From: Faecalimicrobium dakarense
Lineage (GTDB): Bacteria > Bacillota > Clostridia > Peptostreptococcales > Peptostreptococcaceae
Length of the DNA stretch: 46,163 nucleotides
Direction of reading: 5' to 3'
Assembly: GCF_000499525.1 (NCBI RefSeq)
Contig: NZ_HG529344.1
Span: forward strand, 1 to 46,163
Part shown: positions 30,413 to 44,567 of the stretch, piece by piece
Layout of the letters: each line of letters begins with the position of its first letter
Numbering within the stretch: position 1 is the first letter of the stretch
Notes under the pieces: generated by a model
The model's database searches: none
Seen by the model: the letters and a program-made list of their open reading frames with translations, nothing else
Told to the model about the DNA's origin: nothing
Translations under genes and position numbers: made by a program

Positions 30413-30442
30413 AAAAAGAGCATACTTAAGGATGCTCTTTTT
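30413..30442. terminator. Bidirectional terminator
   Basis: Perfect hairpin AAAAAGAGCAT / ATGCTCTTTTT with an 8-base loop between the plus-strand operon ending at 30404 and the minus-strand permease ending at 30442. Confidence 0.85.
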
Positions 30443-32325
30443 TATTTTGTTATTTGTATATATTTTCTTGCACTAGCAATATAATAAACTATATAAATAA
30501 GTGTAAATATAAGTATTGATCCAAATGTTACAATATAACCACTTTCATTAAATAAACCATTAATTGCATATCCTGCAACTATACTATGAATAACACCTAC
30601 TATTATAGGCATTGAGAAAAATATCCCTACTTGCTTATATATAGCTTTATTTATATATTCCTGGCTAATGCCTAATTTTCTCAGAGTTTCAAATCTTACT
30701 TTATCAATGCTTGCATCAGATATACATTTAAAATACATTATACTTCCAAGTGATACCATAAACACTAATGTTAAGAAAATACCAATAAAGTATACTGAGT
30801 TTATAAAGTTATAATCATCTTCATTAAACATATCAAAACTAAACATAGACATATCTGTATATTTTTTTATATAACTTGATATTTTATCTGTATTTTCATA
30901 ATTTCTTAAAGTTACACCTCTAAACTTTATTTTTTCGTCGTATTTTAAAGTATTTTCAAAGTATGAATAGTCCTTATCATTTACAATTAAAATTATCGAA
31001 TCTGTTAATACTCCAGTTATAGAAGATGCAAATCCATCATTTACTTTTATCTTTTTATTTCCTATATTCATATTTATTTTTAAGTTAAATGCATTTATAA
31101 GATTTTTAGGAATTATTATTATCCCTTCACCTTCTTTAGGATTATTTTTTATTATTTTCTTTTCATTTACCAGTTTTTTATTACCCATAATATGTTCTAT
31201 ATCTGAGTATCTAATTATATTAAAATCATTTATATATGGATTTAAATTCGTTTTATATGGTATAAAATCTAGATTTGCTTTAAAATCTATTTCTTCTTTA
31301 CTTAATTTAATAGCTTCATCAACTATTTTATCATCGTTAGAGCTTTGACTAATATAATATAAACTATAAGGAACCTCTACTTCCCTTCCTCCTGAATTTA
31401 AGTTTTTCATACAAAATGCAGTTATAAGACTTGTTAGTGTACAAGTTATTAAAATAGCAACTTGAGCTAATGTTTTATTGTTATTTTTTATTCTAAATAT
31501 TATATTATTGTAACTTACTATATTAGTAACCTTATATAATATCTTCTTATTTTTTATTATTTTAGTTATAATAAATGTAAAAAATCCTTTAAACAAATAC
31601 ATAGTACCAATCATAACCATAATAACTGTACCCATTATAGCTATTGGAAATGGTATATTAAATCTTTTATATCCTACAATAAATATATAAGCTAGTATTA
31701 TTACAAAAAAACCTAATAATCCTTTTAATGTAGATCCTTTAATATTTTCAAATTGATAGACATTTTTTGCATTTATTAATTTTGTTATATCTGTTTTTAT
31801 TAAAGTTATATACTCTTTTATAAATACAAATAAAAGTATACTTAAAAATACTAAAGAGGTTTGAATTATAGCTAGACTTGATACTTCAAACTTTATAGCT
31901 ACATTTATTTTAGCTACTTTTACAATTCCCATTAAAAATAGCTTATTAACTAGTATTCCTAAGAATATCCCAACTATTAATGCGATTATTCCTGTAATTA
32001 ATCCTTCAATTGCAAATAAAAGTGCTATCTTATTGTTTTCTACTCCCATAAAAGTATATATTCCAAACTCTTTTTTTCTTTGTTCTATAAAAAAACTACT
32101 TGAATAAGATATAAAAAATATAAAAAATAAAACCAAAACTACTGCACACATATTTGTTATCATAACTACTGTTTGTAGTTGAGATAGTTCTCTAATTTGC
32201 TCACTAAATATAAGTGATATAAAATTATAAAAAACTGTTATTGAGAAAACCATTGAAAATATATACATTCCATAGTTTTTTACATTTTGTTTCAAATTCA
32301 TCATTGATAGCTTAAATAAGTTCAT
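30442..32325 (-). CDS. Bce-type ABC transporter permease (FtsX fold)
   Basis: 627 residues, ten membrane helices expected, with a large extracellular domain between helices 7 and 8 (about residues 310-510). That layout is specific to BceB/VraG-type transporters for antimicrobial peptides. The start MNLFKLSMMNLKQNVKNYGMY and the segments FIEQRKKEFGIYTFMGV and RFETLRKLGISQEYINKAIY are typical. It forms a complex with the sensor kinase in known systems and senses flux. The gene overlaps the ATPase by 14 bp. Confidence 0.9.
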   Translation of the reverse strand: MNLFKLSMMNLKQNVKNYGMYIFSMVFSITVFYNFISLIFSEQIRELSQLQTVVMITNMCAVVLVLFFIFFISYSSSFFIEQRKKEFGIYTFMGVENNKIALLFAIEGLITGIIALIVGIFLGILVNKLFLMGIVKVAKINVAIKFEVSSLAIIQTSLVFLSILLFVFIKEYITLIKTDITKLINAKNVYQFENIKGSTLKGLLGFFVIILAYIFIVGYKRFNIPFPIAIMGTVIMVMIGTMYLFKGFFTFIITKIIKNKKILYKVTNIVSYNNIIFRIKNNNKTLAQVAILITCTLTSLITAFCMKNLNSGGREVEVPYSLYYISQSSNDDKIVDEAIKLSKEEIDFKANLDFIPYKTNLNPYINDFNIIRYSDIEHIMGNKKLVNEKKIIKNNPKEGEGIIIIPKNLINAFNLKINMNIGNKKIKVNDGFASSITGVLTDSIILIVNDKDYSYFENTLKYDEKIKFRGVTLRNYENTDKISSYIKKYTDMSMFSFDMFNEDDYNFINSVYFIGIFLTLVFMVSLGSIMYFKCISDASIDKVRFETLRKLGISQEYINKAIYKQVGIFFSMPIIVGVIHSIVAGYAINGLFNESGYIVTFGSILIFTLIYIVYYIASARKYIQITK

Positions 32326-33067
32326 TTACTTCACCTCCAAGAGACGTTAGTAAATCCATTATATTTTTGAAAAATTCTTTTCTGTTTCCATTGCTATCTA
32401 TTCTTGCGCTTAATTTTCCATCTTTTATAAAAATCACTTTTTTAGAATAACTTGCTGCAAATGCATCATGAGTTACCATTATTACTGTAACATTAAACTT
32501 TTCATTCATATCCTTTAAACAATTTAAAAGTTCTGATGATGATTTAGAATCAAGAGCTCCAGTTGGTTCATCTGCAAATATTATAGATGGTGATGTAATT
32601 AACGCCCTAGCCGCTGCAACTCTTTGTTTTTGTCCTCCTGATAATTCATATGGATATTTTTTAAGATGCATATCTATTCCAAAAAACTTTGATAATCTAG
32701 TAATTTCTGATTCTATATAACTTTGTTTCTTTCCTCCTATAACAAGAGGAAGTGCAATATTATCTTCTACACTCATACTATCCAGTAGATTATAGTCTTG
32801 AAATATAAACCCTATATTATCTCTTCTAAATTTTGATATTTCTTTATTATTTAAAGCATGTATATCTTTGTTGTCATAATATACATTTCCTTCACTAGGC
32901 TTATCTACTGTTGATAAAATATTTAAGAGAGTAGTCTTACCCGCACCTGATGGTCCCATTATACTTATAAATTCACCTTTTTTAACTTCTAAATTTATAT
33001 TATCTATAACTTTAAATTTATTAGTTTGAGTTTTATACTCTTTTTTTAAATTAACGACTTTTAACAT
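32312..33067 (-). CDS. Bce-type ABC transporter ATP-binding protein
   Basis: 251 residues. Walker A is GPSGAGKTT, Q-loop FIFQDYNLLDSMSV, signature LSGGQKQRVAAARAL, and Walker B IIFADEPTGALDSKSS. It belongs to the MacB/BceA-like group that pairs with a large FtsX-type permease, which overlaps it downstream. GGAGGTAAATT precedes the ATG. It lies 120 bp after the kinase gene, with a BceR-type operator in between, so it is likely a separately inducible unit. Confidence 0.92.
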   Translation of the reverse strand: MLKVVNLKKEYKTQTNKFKVIDNINLEVKKGEFISIMGPSGAGKTTLLNILSTVDKPSEGNVYYDNKDIHALNNKEISKFRRDNIGFIFQDYNLLDSMSVEDNIALPLVIGGKKQSYIESEITRLSKFFGIDMHLKKYPYELSGGQKQRVAAARALITSPSIIFADEPTGALDSKSSSELLNCLKDMNEKFNVTVIMVTHDAFAASYSKKVIFIKDGKLSARIDSNGNRKEFFKNIMDLLTSLGGEVNELI

Positions 33068-33159
33068 ATTAATTTACCTCCAAATAATAACTATACATAT
33101 ATTTTATAAATTTAAGCACTTATAATCCATCCATCAGCCTTACAATTTAGAGGTTAAAA

Positions 33160-33173
33160 TTACATTTATGTAA
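33160..33173 (-). promoter_or_regulatory. BceR-type operator before the ABC transporter genes
   Basis: Palindrome TTACATTTATGTAA (same on both strands apart from the spacer), matching the published BceR-like pattern TNACA-N4-TGTAA exactly. It lies in the 120 bp gap between the kinase and the transporter genes, about 93 bp before the ATPase start. A weak TTGTAA and TTATAA follow in the transcription direction. Confidence 0.65.
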
Positions 33174-33187
33174 TATTAGAGTTTTAT

Positions 33188-34213
33188 TTAGAGTGTAAAG
33201 TAATCTGATAAATTGTAAAATGTAATATATATATCACAAAATTCACCTTGAGTTGAAAATACATCTATGCTATGACTTAATTTACTCAGTATCTTTTTAG
33301 ATATATAAAGACCCATTCCCGTTGATTTAGTTTTTTTACGGCCATTTTCTCCTGTAAATCCTTTGTCAAAAACTCTTTCTATATCTTGTGGTGCTATTCC
33401 AATTCCATTGTCTTTTATATGTAACTTTATGCTTTTCTCATTTTTAGTTGCATAGATTTCAATTTGTCCGCTTTTTTCTATATATTTACATGAATTGTCT
33501 ATTATTTGCTCTACTATGTGAGTTATCCACTTTTTATCAGTCAAAACATTAATATCTAAATTCTCTAGTTTCAAATCTATCTTATTGTATATAAATAAAT
33601 GTTTGTTTCGCCTTACAATTTCTTTTATCACTTTTTCTAAATTAACTTCTTCTATTAAAAAATCTGAACTATAGTTTCCAGACCTTGATATATACAATGC
33701 TTGACCAACTAAGCTCTCGATTCTTTTTAATTCTATATTTATTTCTTTATACAAATTACTTTCATTATGTAAATTATTTTGATTTTCTAATTCTTTAACT
33801 CTTTGAGATATTATTTCAAGTACTGCTATTGGTATTTTAACTTGATGTATCCAATTTGTCATATAATCATTTATTTCTTGAAGTTCATATTTTAAATTTT
33901 GTATATTATTTTCATAGCTATCTAACTTAGTATCTATGACATCATAAAAATATGGATTAAATAAACTATTTTCTTTTTTTATATTATTATTTACATGATT
34001 ATACAACTCATTGTATTTTTTCTTATACTCTAAGTAGCCAAGTATAAAAAATACTATACAAGTTATTACTATTAATGTATTTATATAAATTAAACTATTT
34101 AATATTTTTGATAAGCTTAAATCTAACACTACATTCAAATTTAAAATAATTAATATAGAAATAACCAAAAATAAATATATTTTTACTTCTTTTAAATATC
34201 TAAAAATACTCAT
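33188..34213 (-). CDS. Bce-type intramembrane-sensing histidine kinase
   Basis: 341 residues. Two membrane helices near the N-terminus (VISILIILNLNVVLDL and NTLIVITCIVFFILGYL) have almost no loop between them, as in BceS-like kinases that sense through the transporter. The phospho-acceptor motif is NWIHQVKIPIAVLE; the HATPase motifs are IVEQIIDNSCKYI, DNGIGI and KSTGMGLYISKKI. Its ATG overlaps the regulator stop codon (TAATG). It should phosphorylate the regulator upstream. Confidence 0.9.
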   Translation of the reverse strand: MSIFRYLKEVKIYLFLVISILIILNLNVVLDLSLSKILNSLIYINTLIVITCIVFFILGYLEYKKKYNELYNHVNNNIKKENSLFNPYFYDVIDTKLDSYENNIQNLKYELQEINDYMTNWIHQVKIPIAVLEIISQRVKELENQNNLHNESNLYKEINIELKRIESLVGQALYISRSGNYSSDFLIEEVNLEKVIKEIVRRNKHLFIYNKIDLKLENLDINVLTDKKWITHIVEQIIDNSCKYIEKSGQIEIYATKNEKSIKLHIKDNGIGIAPQDIERVFDKGFTGENGRKKTKSTGMGLYISKKILSKLSHSIDVFSTQGEFCDIYITFYNLSDYFTL

Positions 34214-34887
34214 TATATACTATACCCTTGCCCTTTTTTAGTAGTTATAAAATTATCTAAACCTATTGTACCTAGTTTTTTTCTAAGTCTATTTATATTT
34301 ACTGTTAATGTATTTTCACTTATAAACTCATCACTATCCCAAAGTTCTTCTATTATTGTATCTCTATTTACAATATTACCTTGATTTTTAATTAAAATAT
34401 TAATTATCTTAAATTCATTTTTAGTTAATTCAACAAACTCTTCTTTAAAATAAATTTTACTTTCCAAAATATTAAGTACTACATCTTTATATTTAATTAT
34501 ATCGCTATTTAAAGTATTATTATATGAATATGTTCTTCTAAGTATAGCCTGAACTTTTGCTACTAAGACCTGTGGTGAAAACGGCTTTATTATATAATCA
34601 TCCCCACCTAGATTGATAGACATTACTATATCCATATCACTATCTCTTGATGATATAAATATTATTGGTACTTTCATAAAGTTTCTAATTTGACTACACC
34701 AATAAAATCCATCATAGCAAGGTAAATTAATATCCATTAATATAAGTTTTGGATTAATTTTTAATACTTCATTAGTTATATCTTCTAAATTTTTTACTTC
34801 ATATACATTATACCCCCACTTACTTAGATGTGTACTAATCTCCCTGCTTAAGGCCTGATCATCTTCCACAATAAATATATCTATCAT
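34213..34887 (-). CDS. Bce-type OmpR-family response regulator
   Basis: 224 residues from the ATG at 34887 (AAGGTGG upstream; a GTG three codons earlier is in that site). Receiver domain has VEDDQ, the phospho-acceptor in LILMDINLPCYDG, and IIKPFSPQVLVAKVQAILRR at its end. The C-terminal winged helix has LTKNEFKIINILIKNQGNIV and LTVNINRLRKKLG. It probably binds the TTACA-N4-TGTAA site before the transporter genes. Confidence 0.92.
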   Translation of the reverse strand: MIDIFIVEDDQALSREISTHLSKWGYNVYEVKNLEDITNEVLKINPKLILMDINLPCYDGFYWCSQIRNFMKVPIIFISSRDSDMDIVMSINLGGDDYIIKPFSPQVLVAKVQAILRRTYSYNNTLNSDIIKYKDVVLNILESKIYFKEEFVELTKNEFKIINILIKNQGNIVNRDTIIEELWDSDEFISENTLTVNINRLRKKLGTIGLDNFITTKKGQGYSI

Positions 34888-34947
34888 ATTTACCACCTTC
34901 TTATTTTTTATTGTAATATCTTATCTGAAAATTATTGTATCAGAGTT

Positions 34948-37773: not shown

Positions 37774-37805
37774 AAAAAAGTACCTATCTAATAGGTACTT
37801 TTTTT
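37774..37805 (-). terminator. Terminator of the sigma/anti-sigma/PBP operon
   Basis: Perfect hairpin AAAAAGTACCTAT / ATAGGTACTTTTT with a 3-base loop, two bases past the PBP stop codon. Confidence 0.85.
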
Positions 37806-37806
37806 A

Positions 37807-39813
37807 TTATCTTTCTAAATAGTGTTTTATTGAATTACTTACCTTTTTAACTACAAATTCACTTCCACCTTTGTCTTTTACATCTTCTATAATCATAGAT
37901 ACTACTATTTTAGGATTATCAGTGTTTAATGCAACAAACCATCCATTTTCGCTTCCATTAGTATCTTCCTTACTTTTTTTAATTTCAGCAGTTCCTGTTT
38001 TGCCTGCTATGTTTATTCCATCTATCTTTCCAATACTAGCAGTCGAGTCACTTTCATTTACAACAGCAGAAAATGAATCTACTAATTGATTTATATAACT
38101 ACTATCTATTGCTTGTTTGTAGACTTTAGATTCTTTATTTTCGCTTATAACTAATCTTGGTGTCATTATATTCCCATCATTGCCTAAAGAACTGTATGCC
38201 ATAGCTACATCTAAAGGGCTCATTAAAACTTCTCCTTGACCATAACCTGTATCAGCTAGTAATATTTCATTATCTAAATTTTTACTGTTAGATATTTGTG
38301 ATTTTTGCATAGGATATTCAAATTTAATTTCTTCTCCTATCCCAAATTTTTTACTTCCTTCTATATATTTATCACTTCCTATTTTAAGTGCTTTATCTGC
38401 AAAATATATATTATCAGAGTATTTAACTGCATCCTTTAAATTAATATATAACTTATCGTCTTTAACCCTACTTATTTTGTAATTTCCCCAAGAGCTATCT
38501 TTTTGCCAATCTTTATCTTTTATTTCCATAGCTTCATTTGGATTAATCACTCCATTTTCTAGGCCTATAGCTGATGTTATCAATTTCATTGTAGAACCTG
38601 GAGAATATACATCATTTGCTCTATTTTGAAATTGTGCATTATTGCTATTTTTGTATGTACTTTCTATCTCTTTTGTTTTATATGTTACTAAGACATTAGA
38701 ATCATAAGATGGAGAGCTTACCATAGCTAATACTTCCCCAGTTTTAGGGTCTAATGCTATTGATGCTCCTTTTTCTTTATTCATTTCATTGTATATTTTA
38801 TTTTGTAAATCTGAATCAATAGATAATTTTATATCTTCTCCATTAATGGGATTAGTTTTTTGTATCGTTATTTTTTCTTCTCCTCTTTCTAAGTATATAT
38901 GAGCTCCATCTTTACCTCTTAGCTTTTCTTCATATATGGATTCTAATCCTGATTTTCCTATCTTACTATATGGACTATATCCTTTGCCTTTATTTTTGTC
39001 TAATTCCTCTTTATTTATTTCTCCTATATATCCAATTAGATTTCCTAGTGCTTCACCTTGTATATATACCCTTGAGTTTTTTTTATATACTTTAACACCT
39101 TCCATTTCAAATAACATAGTCGCTTTATCTACTTCATGCTCTGACACGTCTACTATAGGAACTAAGTGTTCTGGATTAGTATTTTTATTTAGTTTATCTT
39201 CTATATAACTTTCATCAATATCTAAAATTTGAGCCATCTTACTTATATTTTCTTCTTTTTTTACTTCAAATACACTTGGATGTATTTCTATAGAGTTTAC
39301 AGTACCATTAGTTGCTAGTTTATTTCCATTTCTATCTAATATGCTTCCCCTTTCTGCAAAATTATTTACTACCCTTACTTTATCATCTTTTATCATATTA
39401 GGAAGTATTAAATTTTCCTCCCATTTTACTTTATATGTTTCATCCTCTTTAACTAAATCTATATTAAGATTATCAAATTTTAAATCCCCAGCTATTGTGT
39501 TCATACTTACACTTATTAGCATATCAGATGAATTAGATTTATCATCTTTATTTATATCTATTTTTATATTATTAGCTCCTATTGCTGAATATATATTTGT
39601 ATATCTTTTTATGAACGTATCCTTATCTATATATTCCTTAGAATCTTTAGATAATAATTCATACATATTTTCATAACTTTGACTGCTCCATGCTTTTATA
39701 TATTTATCTAAGCTATCTTTTTCTTTATCTGATTTATTACATCCTATAATATTCAAACTAATAGTAATTATAATTAACAATATTAAACTAATTTTTTTAT
39801 TTATATTTTTCAT
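37807..39813 (-). CDS. Class B penicillin-binding protein with MecA-type N-terminal domain
   Basis: 668 residues. A lipoprotein-like signal (ISLNIIGC, Cys25) is followed by an NTF2-like MecA_N domain (~28-140), a dimerisation domain (~145-310, with ERGSILDRNG) and a transpeptidase domain. Active-site motifs are STMK (407-410), SDN (466-468) and KTG (605-607). Proteins of this layout include the low-affinity PBPs of staphylococci and enterococci and B. subtilis PbpC-like enzymes. It crosslinks peptidoglycan outside the membrane. It is the third gene of an ECF sigma operon, 16 bp after the anti-sigma gene. Confidence 0.92.
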   Translation of the reverse strand: MKNINKKISLILLIIITISLNIIGCNKSDKEKDSLDKYIKAWSSQSYENMYELLSKDSKEYIDKDTFIKRYTNIYSAIGANNIKIDINKDDKSNSSDMLISVSMNTIAGDLKFDNLNIDLVKEDETYKVKWEENLILPNMIKDDKVRVVNNFAERGSILDRNGNKLATNGTVNSIEIHPSVFEVKKEENISKMAQILDIDESYIEDKLNKNTNPEHLVPIVDVSEHEVDKATMLFEMEGVKVYKKNSRVYIQGEALGNLIGYIGEINKEELDKNKGKGYSPYSKIGKSGLESIYEEKLRGKDGAHIYLERGEEKITIQKTNPINGEDIKLSIDSDLQNKIYNEMNKEKGASIALDPKTGEVLAMVSSPSYDSNVLVTYKTKEIESTYKNSNNAQFQNRANDVYSPGSTMKLITSAIGLENGVINPNEAMEIKDKDWQKDSSWGNYKISRVKDDKLYINLKDAVKYSDNIYFADKALKIGSDKYIEGSKKFGIGEEIKFEYPMQKSQISNSKNLDNEILLADTGYGQGEVLMSPLDVAMAYSSLGNDGNIMTPRLVISENKESKVYKQAIDSSYINQLVDSFSAVVNESDSTASIGKIDGINIAGKTGTAEIKKSKEDTNGSENGWFVALNTDNPKIVVSMIIEDVKDKGGSEFVVKKVSNSIKHYLER

Positions 39814-39829
39814 ACTAATCCCCCTGTAT

Positions 39830-40672
39830 TTACCTAAAATGGCTATTTTTTATATTTTCTATTTCTCCATAATGCAGACCTATGGCTTCTCCTACTTCTC
39901 CATTTAACGCTCTCCATACATAATTATGTAATTCTACTCCATTTTCAAAATTTCCAGCTTCCCATTTTTTAAGTTCATTATATAAATAACTTTTACTACT
40001 TTCATCAGACATATTTTCTACTCCTTTTAAAGCTGCATCTATTGTTTTAGGACTTATTTCTGTATAACCTCTAGAGTAATCTCTAGCAACTATTATCCCA
40101 TTTGCCATTTCATGTATTAGGTTTATAGTTTCTTCATCTGTCACTGGTACATCTACATTCTCTTCGTATACCTCTATATACTTCTCGTCTTCTTCAGGTT
40201 CATATTTAACTTCTTGTTTATGTACCTCTTCATCAGTCTTTGATAAACTCGGTTGTACTATAGGCTCTTCTTTTCTTACTTCAAATTTTATCTTCCCATT
40301 TTTATCTAGTTTAGCCTTCGGCAAAATCTTATCTATACCTGTAATACGCGCTATCTCATCAATATGTAGTGTGTTATTTATATTTTGTAATAACTTTTCT
40401 ATATAAGGCATTTCATGTGCTAATATAGGATTATAAACTCCAATAGATAATATTACTGTTATACTTGCTGCTAAAGATGTTGATATTTTTTTTAACTTTT
40501 CTTTTTTCATATCATTTTCTGCTTTATCTATTGATTTTCTTGCTAAAGACATCATATCATTAGGCACTTTTATATTACTTATTTTTTCTCTATCTATATA
40601 AAATTCTTCCATTTGTTTATCTAGTTCTTTTATATCATCTAGATTATTTTTATTTATCTTTTCCTTAGTCAT
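39830..40672 (-). CDS. Probable membrane anti-sigma factor
   Basis: 280 residues. A cytoplasmic part (1-62) with KVPNDMMSLARKSIDKAEN resembles the start of DUF4179-type anti-sigma factors. One membrane helix (about 64-82, SLAASITVILSIGVYNPIL) follows. The outer part holds a Glu-rich linker and a C-terminal domain (VTDEETINLIHEMANGIIVA ... ALKGVENMSDESS) of a type I only vaguely know from clostridia. It should hold the upstream sigma factor until a cell-wall signal arrives. Its ATG overlaps the sigma gene by 8 bp, and the PBP gene follows. Confidence 0.75.
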   Translation of the reverse strand: MTKEKINKNNLDDIKELDKQMEEFYIDREKISNIKVPNDMMSLARKSIDKAENDMKKEKLKKISTSLAASITVILSIGVYNPILAHEMPYIEKLLQNINNTLHIDEIARITGIDKILPKAKLDKNGKIKFEVRKEEPIVQPSLSKTDEEVHKQEVKYEPEEDEKYIEVYEENVDVPVTDEETINLIHEMANGIIVARDYSRGYTEISPKTIDAALKGVENMSDESSKSYLYNELKKWEAGNFENGVELHNYVWRALNGEVGEAIGLHYGEIENIKNSHFR

Positions 40673-41192
40673 TTTTATATCCCTCCCTCAATAAATTTTT
40701 CATATCACTTATAGCTTTTCTTATATGTGTTTTTATTGTATTTACAGGGCGATTTAGTGTATTTGCTACTTCTTCTACTTTCATATCATGAATATATCTA
40801 AGGATAATTACATCTTTATACTTATCTTCTAGTTCATCTATAGCATTATATAAATCTATTTTTATCTCCATTTGATCTTCTACAACTACCTCTTTTATAA
40901 ATGCTTCTTCCTCATGTTCTAAATCTATAATTCCGTTCTTTGATAAAAAATCATTAGATACATTTATAAGTATTCGAGTTATCCATGTTTTAAAGTACTC
41001 AGGTTGCCTCAGTTTTTTTATTCCCCTAAATGCTTTGTATACTGTTTCTTGAACTACTTCCTTAGCATCATCTTCATATTTAGTTCTTAGGTATGCCTCC
41101 CTATATAAATAATTCATATGTACTTCTATTAACTGTTCAAAGGCTTCCCTATCACCTTTAATAGCTCGTTTTACTGTAACTATATCTTCCAT
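40665..41192 (-). CDS. ECF-type RNA polymerase sigma factor (SigV-like)
   Basis: 175 residues from the ATG at 41192, placed after GGGAGAAAAT; a longer frame starting at 41219 lies before that site. Region 2 is EAFEQLIEVHMNYLYREAYLRTKYEDDAKEVVQE-like with TWITRILINVSND; region 4 is EDKYKDVIILRYIHDMKVEEVANTLNRPVNTIKTHI. It has no extra domain. An anti-sigma gene overlaps its end. A TAAAAC-N17-GGTC element upstream looks like an ECF promoter, suggesting autoregulation. Confidence 0.9.
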   Translation of the reverse strand: MEDIVTVKRAIKGDREAFEQLIEVHMNYLYREAYLRTKYEDDAKEVVQETVYKAFRGIKKLRQPEYFKTWITRILINVSNDFLSKNGIIDLEHEEEAFIKEVVVEDQMEIKIDLYNAIDELEDKYKDVIILRYIHDMKVEEVANTLNRPVNTIKTHIRKAISDMKNLLREGYKND

Positions 41193-41237
41193 ATTTTCTC
41201 CCTTATTATATACTTTCATTTATGATTGCACTTATTA

Positions 41238-41264
41238 GACCTTCCCCTTAAACAAAAGGTTTTA
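41238..41264 (-). promoter_or_regulatory. Candidate autoregulatory ECF promoter
   Basis: On the minus strand, TAAAAC (41259-41264), a 17-base spacer and GGTC (41238-41241), close to the SigV-type pattern TGAAAC-N16/17-CGTC. The start of transcription would be about 40 bases before the sigma factor ATG. Confidence 0.4.
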
Positions 41265-41304: not shown

Positions 41305-41335
41305 AAAGCATAGAGAAAATTCTTCTCTATGCTTT
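41305..41335. terminator. Terminator upstream of the sigma operon
   Basis: Hairpin AAAGCATAGAGAA / TTCTCTATGCTTT with a 5-base loop, 180 bp after the stop of the small gene at 41516. The flanking T run is short. Confidence 0.7.
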
Positions 41336-43276: not shown

Positions 43277-43509
43277 ACTTTTCTGAGTAAATATTTTACT
43301 ATTTATCAAAAATTTCATTTTACAAAATACGTCATTCCTTAATTTATCCACAGTATTTTCTAACCATTTTTATTATTTTGCTTTGTTTTAATATTTTTAT
43401 AGACATAAATTATTTATTTTCCCTAATTTTTATAAGCAGATATTGGAGAATGATTTTAAAAGGTATTTTAACTTTTAAGTTCAATTTTATAAAAATAAGG
43501 AGTGATGAG

Positions 43510-44567
43510 ATGAGATATAAAAAATATTTAATTATTTTAAATATATTATTAATGAGTATTTTTACTGGTTGTTCAAGTGTAAGCGCTGAAAATTATATTC
43601 CAAACATAGATGTTCGAGGGTTGACTCTAAAGACATCTTTAATTCAAACAGCATACGAAATGTATAATGTAAATCTAGGAAATCCAGATACTTTTTCAGA
43701 AGCTTTATACAAGGATTACGGAAAAGAATCTCATAAGCATTATAAATGGCTTGTGTCCTCATATAATGAAATGAGTGATGGCATGAAAAAAAGTTTAAAA
43801 ATATTTTTACATATGGTAATCATTTGGATTATGCATATAGTATTATAGATTTAGATGATAATACTACTACTAAAGAAATAGTCAATACAATTATCAATGA
43901 TGAAGGTTTAAACTTACCTGGCTACTTGAAAAAAGATATTAGTAATTTTTTAAATTATTTCTATAATAATTACTTTAAGTCATATTTTAATAAAAATATA
44001 AATAGATTTGATAAAAAATCAGATAAAATAAATGAAATTTTGGAAATAAACGATGTTAATGTTATAAAGTTTATGGAAGATACCTCTGGAATAAAATTTA
44101 ACAAAAAAATAAAATCAGTTTTTTATTATAATTTTAATCCAATTCAACCTCAGGAATTCAAAAAAGGAAATGTATTATTATCAACTATACAACCAGATAC
44201 AACCGCCAAAGATATTTTAAGCATTCCTTTTCATGAATATTCTCGCTCTTTATTTAAGACATTTACTACAACTCCAGAATTTTTAGATGTGTGCAATTTA
44301 CTAAAAGAAAATAAAGAGTTTATAGAAGCTTATAATGATATCGGAAAGGGCCTTTACACTTTTGAGGAGTGGTGTGAAATAAATTTAATAGAGGGATTCT
44401 CAAAGTACTTAGATTATAAATATTATAAAAGTGCCTACGAGTATACTAGATATATTTATGATTTAGATTTTTATAATTATTTAAAAGATAATAGTTTTAA
44501 TCCTAATAAAATTTCTTTGAAAGATATTAGTATTAAATTTTACAAAAGCAAATTAAATACTAATTAA
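43510..44567 (+). pseudogene. Lipoprotein of unknown function, interrupted by a -1 frameshift
   Basis: Starts at 43510 after AAGGAG, with a lipoprotein signal (ILLMSIFTGC). The first frame runs to 43848 but its last ~20 residues are the wrong frame. The -1 frame continues as NIFTYGNHLDYAYSIIDLDD and on to 44567. The shift is in 43786-43808, which contains A7, A5 and T5 runs; the exact run cannot be decided. Joined length is ~352 residues. The segment IPFHEYSRSLF recalls a zinc metalloprotease HExxH motif that has lost its second histidine, so catalysis is doubtful. No family is recognised with confidence. Confidence 0.75.

Follow-up and report, generated by a model that had tools for sequence, protein, structure and literature searches.

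An apparent operon of an extracytoplasmic function sigma factor, a DUF6241 anti-sigma factor and a MecA-type penicillin-binding protein in Faecalimicrobium dakarense and its relatives

MecA-type penicillin-binding proteins (PBPs), the kind of enzyme behind antibiotic resistance of the methicillin-resistant Staphylococcus aureus type, are familiar chiefly as constitutive enzymes or as enzymes controlled by BlaR1/MecR1 repressors. Here we describe a locus of Faecalimicrobium dakarense in which genes for an extracytoplasmic function (ECF) sigma factor, an anti-sigma factor and a MecA-type class B PBP (hereafter, the trio) stand in series (Table 1). The window, that is, the whole stretch of DNA analysed (46,163 nucleotides of NZ_HG529344.1, assembly GCF_000499525.1), is a single contig within a 3.73-Mb genome (labelled G000), and the nearest named relative of the host is Clostridium sp. 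CCUG 7971, which NCBI lists under Clostridium; we assign the host to the Peptostreptococcaceae. The nearest precedent for the trio is the sigmaP/RsiP/PbpP system of Bacillus thuringiensis. According to the papers on that system, a PBP senses beta-lactams and PBPs belong to the regulon (PMC8092216, PMC8791391), PbpP is required for sigmaP and activates it when overproduced (PMC8092216, PMC8844934), and the regulon includes beta-lactamases, with sigmaP now reclassified to ECF265 (PMC8092216, PMC8844934, PMC8791391). For the anti-sigma factor RsiV, the published account places the signal-peptidase site within the amphipathic helices of DUF4179 (PMC6066255). Among the open-licence papers searched, none was found on a sigma factor, an anti-sigma factor and a PBP together in Peptostreptococcaceae.

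We favor, with moderate confidence, the view that the trio is an inducible cell-wall repair switch that provides a spare transpeptidase. The original prediction had taken the overlap of the first two genes and the short spacing before the third as signs of a single transcript, and both hold on the minus strand, which that prediction had not named: sigma and anti-sigma genes overlap by 8 bp, and 16 bp separate the anti-sigma gene from the PBP gene, so that one operon is supported by the sequence. The ECF-type promoter expected ahead of the sigma gene is likewise present, and its conservation in sequence and spacing lends support, at that level, to an autoregulatory reading. This element reads TTAAAACYTTTT-N13-GTCTAA or nearly so. 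Of the 71 genomes of the family surveyed, 14 carry the sigma factor (identity of at least 57%), and 12 of these have the element ahead of the sigma gene. G003 (ATCTAA) and G083 each depart from it at one base, the seventh base of its first box is variable, and it was not found at the sigma genes of G008 and G077, which score -5.6 and -13.3 bits with the weight matrix introduced below. The arrangement itself, whose conservation had been left as a point to check, is contiguous in six of the 71 genomes, which span four genera (G000, G001, G018, G074, G073, and G013), with overlaps of 8 to 14 bp and gaps of 11 to 18 bp; in G013, the PBP frame is interrupted by one TGA. Given this contiguity, the similar spacing and the conserved promoter, the trio is more than a product of chance.

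The sigma factor and the PBP also seem to be inherited together. PBPs of this type occur in 22 of the 71 genomes: 11 are at least 54% identical to that of the window, five share 49 to 52% (genus g11) and six share 39 to 40% (genus g17). All 11 close PBPs fall within the 14 sigma-bearing genomes. Counted by genus, 6 of the 7 that have the sigma factor also have a close PBP, versus 0 of the 16 that lack it; when every PBP is counted, the figures are 6 of 7 and 2 of 16. Fisher's test on these counts is only indicative, since the genomes are related and the cut-offs of 54% (PBP) and 57% (sigma) were chosen after the hits had been seen, with the next PBPs, those of g11, at 52%. In a tree of 15 PBPs, which like the underlying alignment samples 15 of the 22 PBP genomes (G013, with its interrupted frame, G084, G043, G045, G046, G047, and G057 being left out), the unlinked PBPs of genus g14 branch next to the linked one of G018, whereas the branching does not settle where g11 falls relative to the close PBPs. 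The placement of g14 fits an ancestral trio that later came apart with the promoter kept, though the reverse order of events might also have occurred.

The distribution of the promoter points in the same direction. We scored 220 upstream regions, taken from 24 loci, with a weight matrix built on 11 sigma autopromoters. The 11 highest-scoring regions comprise eight sigma genes, whose own sites are in the matrix, and three unlinked PBP genes, whose sites are not. The latter score 32.2 (G083), 31.8 (G082), and 11.3 bits (G003), against 5.5 bits for the best unrelated region; the unlinked PBP gene of G084, scanned apart, scores 31.8 bits. The promoter thus lies ahead of four of the five unlinked PBPs in sigma-bearing genomes, in a test that covered 12 of the 16 regions upstream of PBP genes not in a trio (those of G045, G046, G047, and G057 were left out). 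The sigma site of G083, being one base off, was missed by the pattern and so did not enter the 11-site matrix; it scores 31.7 bits with a later 12-site matrix, one site of which is a second site at the G085 locus. Because the PBP is either linked to the sigma gene or, in four of five unlinked cases, has its own copy of the promoter, it appears to be a genuine target of this sigma factor. The absence of PBP, DUF6241, and sigma promoter alike from G008 and G077 fits the proposed switch. That the PBP merely happens to sit downstream of a sigma/anti-sigma pair might be argued from the pair without a PBP in G014 and from the g11 and g17 PBPs without this sigma; the contiguous arrangement in six genomes of four genera and the promoter at four of five unlinked PBPs, as revealed by the matrix scan, speak against such a coincidence, which we regard as very improbable.

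An exact-pattern search for the promoter with spacers of 10 to 14 bases in 14 chosen genomes (a set outside which G083 and G084 lie) returned 23 sites in 11 genomes versus 1 for the reversed control, with a spacer of exactly 13 bases in 22 of the 23, although some of the 23 may not be real. Three exact sites lie in the F. dakarense genome (reversed control, 0). They precede the trio, a gene for a 271-residue predicted lipoprotein, and a gene whose product is related to a BNR-type membrane protein. All three recur in the sister species, where one of them contains a mismatch and is separated from the BNR-type gene by a 125-residue frame. When two mismatches were allowed, G000 and G001 gave 6 and 7 sites versus 8 and 9 for the reversed control, which is no better than the control, and the regulon was therefore limited to exact and one-mismatch sites. 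Three exact sites may be chance matches: in L107 and L110, no probable gene start follows the site at short range (in L110, a 56-residue frame begins at 594 bases), and at L116, the nearest frame is 354 bases away. Within the window, the trio promoter is the sole site at up to three mismatches, yet 49 of 100 shuffles give at least one. The description of the locus as self-contained is too strong, since two further genes of the genome carry the promoter.

For the anti-sigma factor, domain matches and an alignment of 12 sequences suggest, in order, a cytoplasmic N-terminus, one transmembrane segment, a DUF4179-like switch, a linker, and DUF6241 outside the cell, the topology being read from the sequence. 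DUF6241 scores 70.4 bits (Pfam cut-off 27) and stands where DUF3298 might be expected, for which no match is listed up to an E value of 1. Judged by these features, the protein is not an RsiV: its juxtamembrane region is RsiV-like, and DUF6241 replaces DUF3298 as the outside domain, a difference that the original prediction had not noted. All nine full-length anti-sigma factors examined carry Y[NS]P[IVA]LA and an amphipathic stretch after the membrane segment, the hydrophobic moment of the stretch being above that of 88 to 99% of shuffles. The [IVA]-L-A site is found in 9 of the 11 anti-sigma factors of this sigma group, the exceptions being two shortened ones (G008 and G077), and is not kept in the DUF6241 anti-sigma factors of three other sigma pairs (L030, L031, and L032). 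By analogy with RsiV, cleavage may take place at the I-L-A site of the window protein.

DUF6241 exceeds its cut-off in 20 of the 71 family genomes. Of 391 genomes drawn from across the class, only 3 contain it, that of the window included, and none of the 14 controls does. Small proteins with a single hydrophobic N-terminal segment have the domain as well, as do anti-sigma factors paired with other sigma factors at loci without a PBP (the same L030, L031, and L032); it is therefore not a PBP-only part. No paper naming DUF6241 was found among the open-licence papers searched, and we know of no ligand for it. AlphaFold models, made for the window anti-sigma factor and its L025 orthologue only, have a mean predicted local distance difference test score of 39.4 for the whole protein and 57.9 for DUF6241 alone, which is modeled as all helical; with such low scores, they are too poor for a fold search. 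A profile of the 12 anti-sigma factors likewise found no solved relative (best E value 0.21, ribosomal proteins).

The sigma factor falls just short of TIGR02954 (184.9 bits, cut-off 188.5) and well below the SigV equivalog (111.5 bits, cut-off 190). Its true start is probably the ATG at 41192, which follows an AAGGGAG ribosome site and would give 175 residues, since orthologues share this arrangement of ribosome site and ATG. In G024, the sigma match is limited to residues 6 to 89. The sigma gene of G077 was considered as a broken gene and ruled out as such, because the reported stop precedes the gene start.

Several observations weigh against the switch we propose. The sigma factor is present in none of the 11 genomes with more distant PBPs (five of g11 and six of g17), and G014, one of three sigma-bearing genomes without the PBP (with G008 and G077), retains sigma, anti-sigma, and promoter with the PBP absent. 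No promoter was found ahead of the g11 and g17 PBPs (four and three scanned, respectively), nor in the 250 bases scanned upstream of the unlinked PBP of G085 (-16.6 bits). As G082, G083, and G084 come from a single genus and share their surroundings, and as the site in G003 is weaker, the unlinked PBPs with a promoter count as two independent cases. The DUF4179 match of the anti-sigma factor (24.7 bits) is below the Pfam cut-off of 30.1, as is that of the RsiV-type protein of the same genome (26.6 bits). Finally, since the promoter of the RsiV-type operon in this genome is similar, targets could overlap, with some cross-talk possible; the promoter specificities of this sigma factor and of a sigmaV-like one may overlap as well.

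As for the trigger, lysozyme, which had been put forward beside beta-lactams, appears unlikely, because the anti-sigma factor is without DUF3298 and the genome has a separate RsiV-type pair, in which an anti-sigma factor with DUF3298 and DUF4179 adjoins a gene that reads as a sigma factor (L147). The sigmaV-RsiV lysozyme system is reportedly also found in Clostridioides difficile (PMC9044953). In the repair switch that we favor, the single-pass anti-sigma factor would bind the sigma factor and keep it at the membrane at rest. A signal of wall damage, met outside by DUF6241, would unmask the signal-peptidase-like site in the RsiV-like juxtamembrane region; the anti-sigma factor would be cut there and next within the membrane, by analogy with RsiV, freeing the sigma factor. 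The latter would then transcribe its own operon, along with a few other genes for surface proteins, and the raised level of the MecA-type lipoprotein transpeptidase would keep cross-linking going while the usual PBPs are blocked.

The PBP might, however, be a beta-lactam sensor besides or instead of an effector, an acylated or accumulating PBP promoting cleavage of the anti-sigma factor as PbpP acts on RsiP. The shared operon and the PbpP precedent speak for this possibility, as do G008 and G077 (genus g8), in which the PBP and DUF6241 are jointly missing. There, the sigma promoter is absent as well, the sigma frame is open (L033:6032-7100 and L178:6293-7250), the anti-sigma factors are short (150 and 148 residues), and the cold-shock and ribonucleotide reductase neighbors are still in place; the locus is possibly a sensor-less remnant. 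Nevertheless, the joint loss could be a single deletion, G014 keeps the sigma/anti-sigma pair and promoter without the PBP, the DUF6241 anti-sigma factors of other sigma pairs have no PBP in the locus, and PbpP lies outside the sigP-rsiP operon, whose RsiP is described without DUF4179. We therefore consider a sensory role of the PBP unlikely. A bolder version, which we rate as improbable, would make DUF6241 a new class of wall-damage receptor that reads the co-encoded PBP, a drug-bound or idle PBP triggering anti-sigma cleavage; in that case, detection of the drug, self-activation, and supply of a bypass enzyme would all reside in a single cluster of genes.

The PBP itself has the domain layout of low-affinity enzymes, as was originally proposed, with MecA_N (78.8 bits), PBP_dimer (127.5 bits), and Transpeptidase (230.4 bits) in that order and all above cut-off. 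Its active-site motifs are STMK, SDN, and KTG (KTGT), and S407, K410, S466-N468, and K605-G607 are invariant across the 15 aligned PBP sequences. The signal region ends, by eye, in IIGC, from which the protein reads as a predicted lipoprotein. Its best relative in the PDB is 'Penicillin-binding protein 3' (7bn9, 468 bits), which we take to be of the Bacillus type, followed by PBP5 and PBP2a chains. Whether the enzyme works as a drug-insensitive substitute may be questioned: it could be an auxiliary wall enzyme with normal beta-lactam binding, serving a growth phase or a non-drug stress such as antimicrobial peptides, bile, or osmotic shock. A MecA-type layout is not in itself proof of low affinity, the PBP is short of the nearest NCBIfam equivalogs (569 bits versus a cut-off of 700 for PBP4(5), and 412.2 versus 750 for PBP2a (MecA)), its best structural relative is named PBP3, and DUF6241 is not known to us to have a ligand. 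Membership of the sigma regulon suggests instead a conditional need, and one of the PBP5 entries next in the PDB ranking (6g0k) is named low affinity; on balance, the auxiliary role seems doubtful, if less so than a sensory one.

The limits of the locus, 37774 to 41264, coincide with a hairpin on the PBP side and with the ECF promoter on the sigma side. This hairpin lies where the PBP gene and a cold-shock gene converge. The scan calls it terminator-like on the plus strand only, and it may serve as the PBP terminator; in the minus-strand sense, its T run sits inside the counted stem. A second hairpin, 5' of the promoter, would insulate the operon. Between 37300 and 41900, three terminator-like sites were found versus a shuffle mean of 0.9. 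No BlaR1/BlaI genes were recognized by eye among the listed open reading frames of the trio loci, without a profile scan of every frame.

Table 1. Coordinates of the trio and associated features in the window.
Feature	Position	Strand	Remarks
ECF sigma factor	41219-40665	-	184 residues as listed; Pfam Sigma70_r2 and r4_2
Anti-sigma factor	40672-39830	-	280 residues; DUF6241, weak DUF4179, one transmembrane segment
MecA-type class B PBP	39813-37807	-	668 residues; predicted lipoprotein
ECF-type autoregulatory promoter (putative), TAAAACCTTTT-N13-GTCTAA	41264-41235	-	-35 at 41264-41254, -10 at 41240-41235
DUF6241 domain, putative sensor	39857-40117	-	Pfam match
Signal-peptidase-like site I-L-A, residues 83-85	40418-40426	-	close to the outer face of the membrane; an amphipathic stretch follows
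Terminator-like hairpin 5' of the promoter	41305-41335	-	terminator scan
Hairpin separating the convergent PBP and cold-shock genes	37774-37804	.	terminator-like on the + strand only

Some further observations concern genes with this promoter type and the neighborhood of the trio. In G014, which has no PBP match, an L,D-transpeptidase with choline-binding repeats (L113:1502-3005) has an exact copy of the promoter 278 bases upstream. A sigmaV/RsiV-like sigma/anti-sigma operon of G082 (L124) has a promoter of the same type, whose spacer is 14 bases long. The relative of the BNR-type membrane protein behind the same ECF promoter in F. dakarense consists of two frames of 180 and 197 residues (L182:163-1352, on G000:C101); in the sister species, it is open to the locus end (L131, 272 residues), and in G003, it has 405 residues (L123). 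Two genes away from the trio, an FtsX-type permease, an ATP-binding cassette ATPase, a histidine kinase, and a response regulator lie in series (30442-34896), presumably a set of the kind found in Bce-type peptide-antibiotic modules. On the plus strand, one gene is apparently split into two frames of 156 and 247 residues (43378-44567); its counterpart in the sister species is a single 393-residue frame (L025:37-1218), and the split is either a real break or an assembly error.

Taken together, a natural lineage seems to have placed a MecA-type PBP under a membrane-gated ECF sigma factor with an unstudied sensor domain, and the PBP seemingly stays in the sigma regulon in some genomes where its gene has moved. 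This would add to the means by which a spare transpeptidase can be switched on, make DUF6241 a testable receptor, and offer a possible route to inducible beta-lactam tolerance among relatives of gut Clostridia.

Compared with sigmaP-RsiP, the trio shares an autoregulated ECF sigma factor with a single-pass anti-sigma factor, a PBP gene near the sigma pair, and PBPs as regulated genes; activation by signal peptidase and site-2 protease was shown there and is inferred for the present operon. The systems differ in that PbpP is encoded outside the sigP-rsiP operon and acts as a sensor, whereas the PBP of the trio lies inside the operon, and in that RsiP is without DUF4179, whereas the trio anti-sigma factor has a weak DUF4179 match and DUF6241. 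With sigmaV-RsiV of B. subtilis, the trio has in common a signal-peptidase-like site that lies within an amphipathic region next to the membrane, in the trio possibly of the DUF4179 type (PMC6066255); the outside domain of RsiV is, however, the lysozyme-binding DUF3298 rather than DUF6241, and the trio has a MecA-type PBP as a partner. PBP2a, enterococcal PBP5 and PBP4, and the 'PBP3' of 7bn9 show the same three-domain layout and near-full-length similarity to the trio PBP, which differs in remaining below the equivalog cut-offs and in being under an ECF sigma factor rather than MecR1/MecI. PBP5 of C. difficile (PMC10128037), from the same bacterial family, is MecA-type like the trio PBP and seems to be a distant cousin of it. 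We infer that the g17 genomes belong to the C. difficile group; there the MecA-type PBP is variably present (six of eight genomes) and shares 37 to 40% identity with the trio PBP. At two loci of these large-genome relatives (L095:529-5299 and L096:6010-10638), the PBP gene is convergent with BlaI/BlaR1 genes and is without the sigma promoter, and relatives may therefore place MecA-type PBPs under two different switches.

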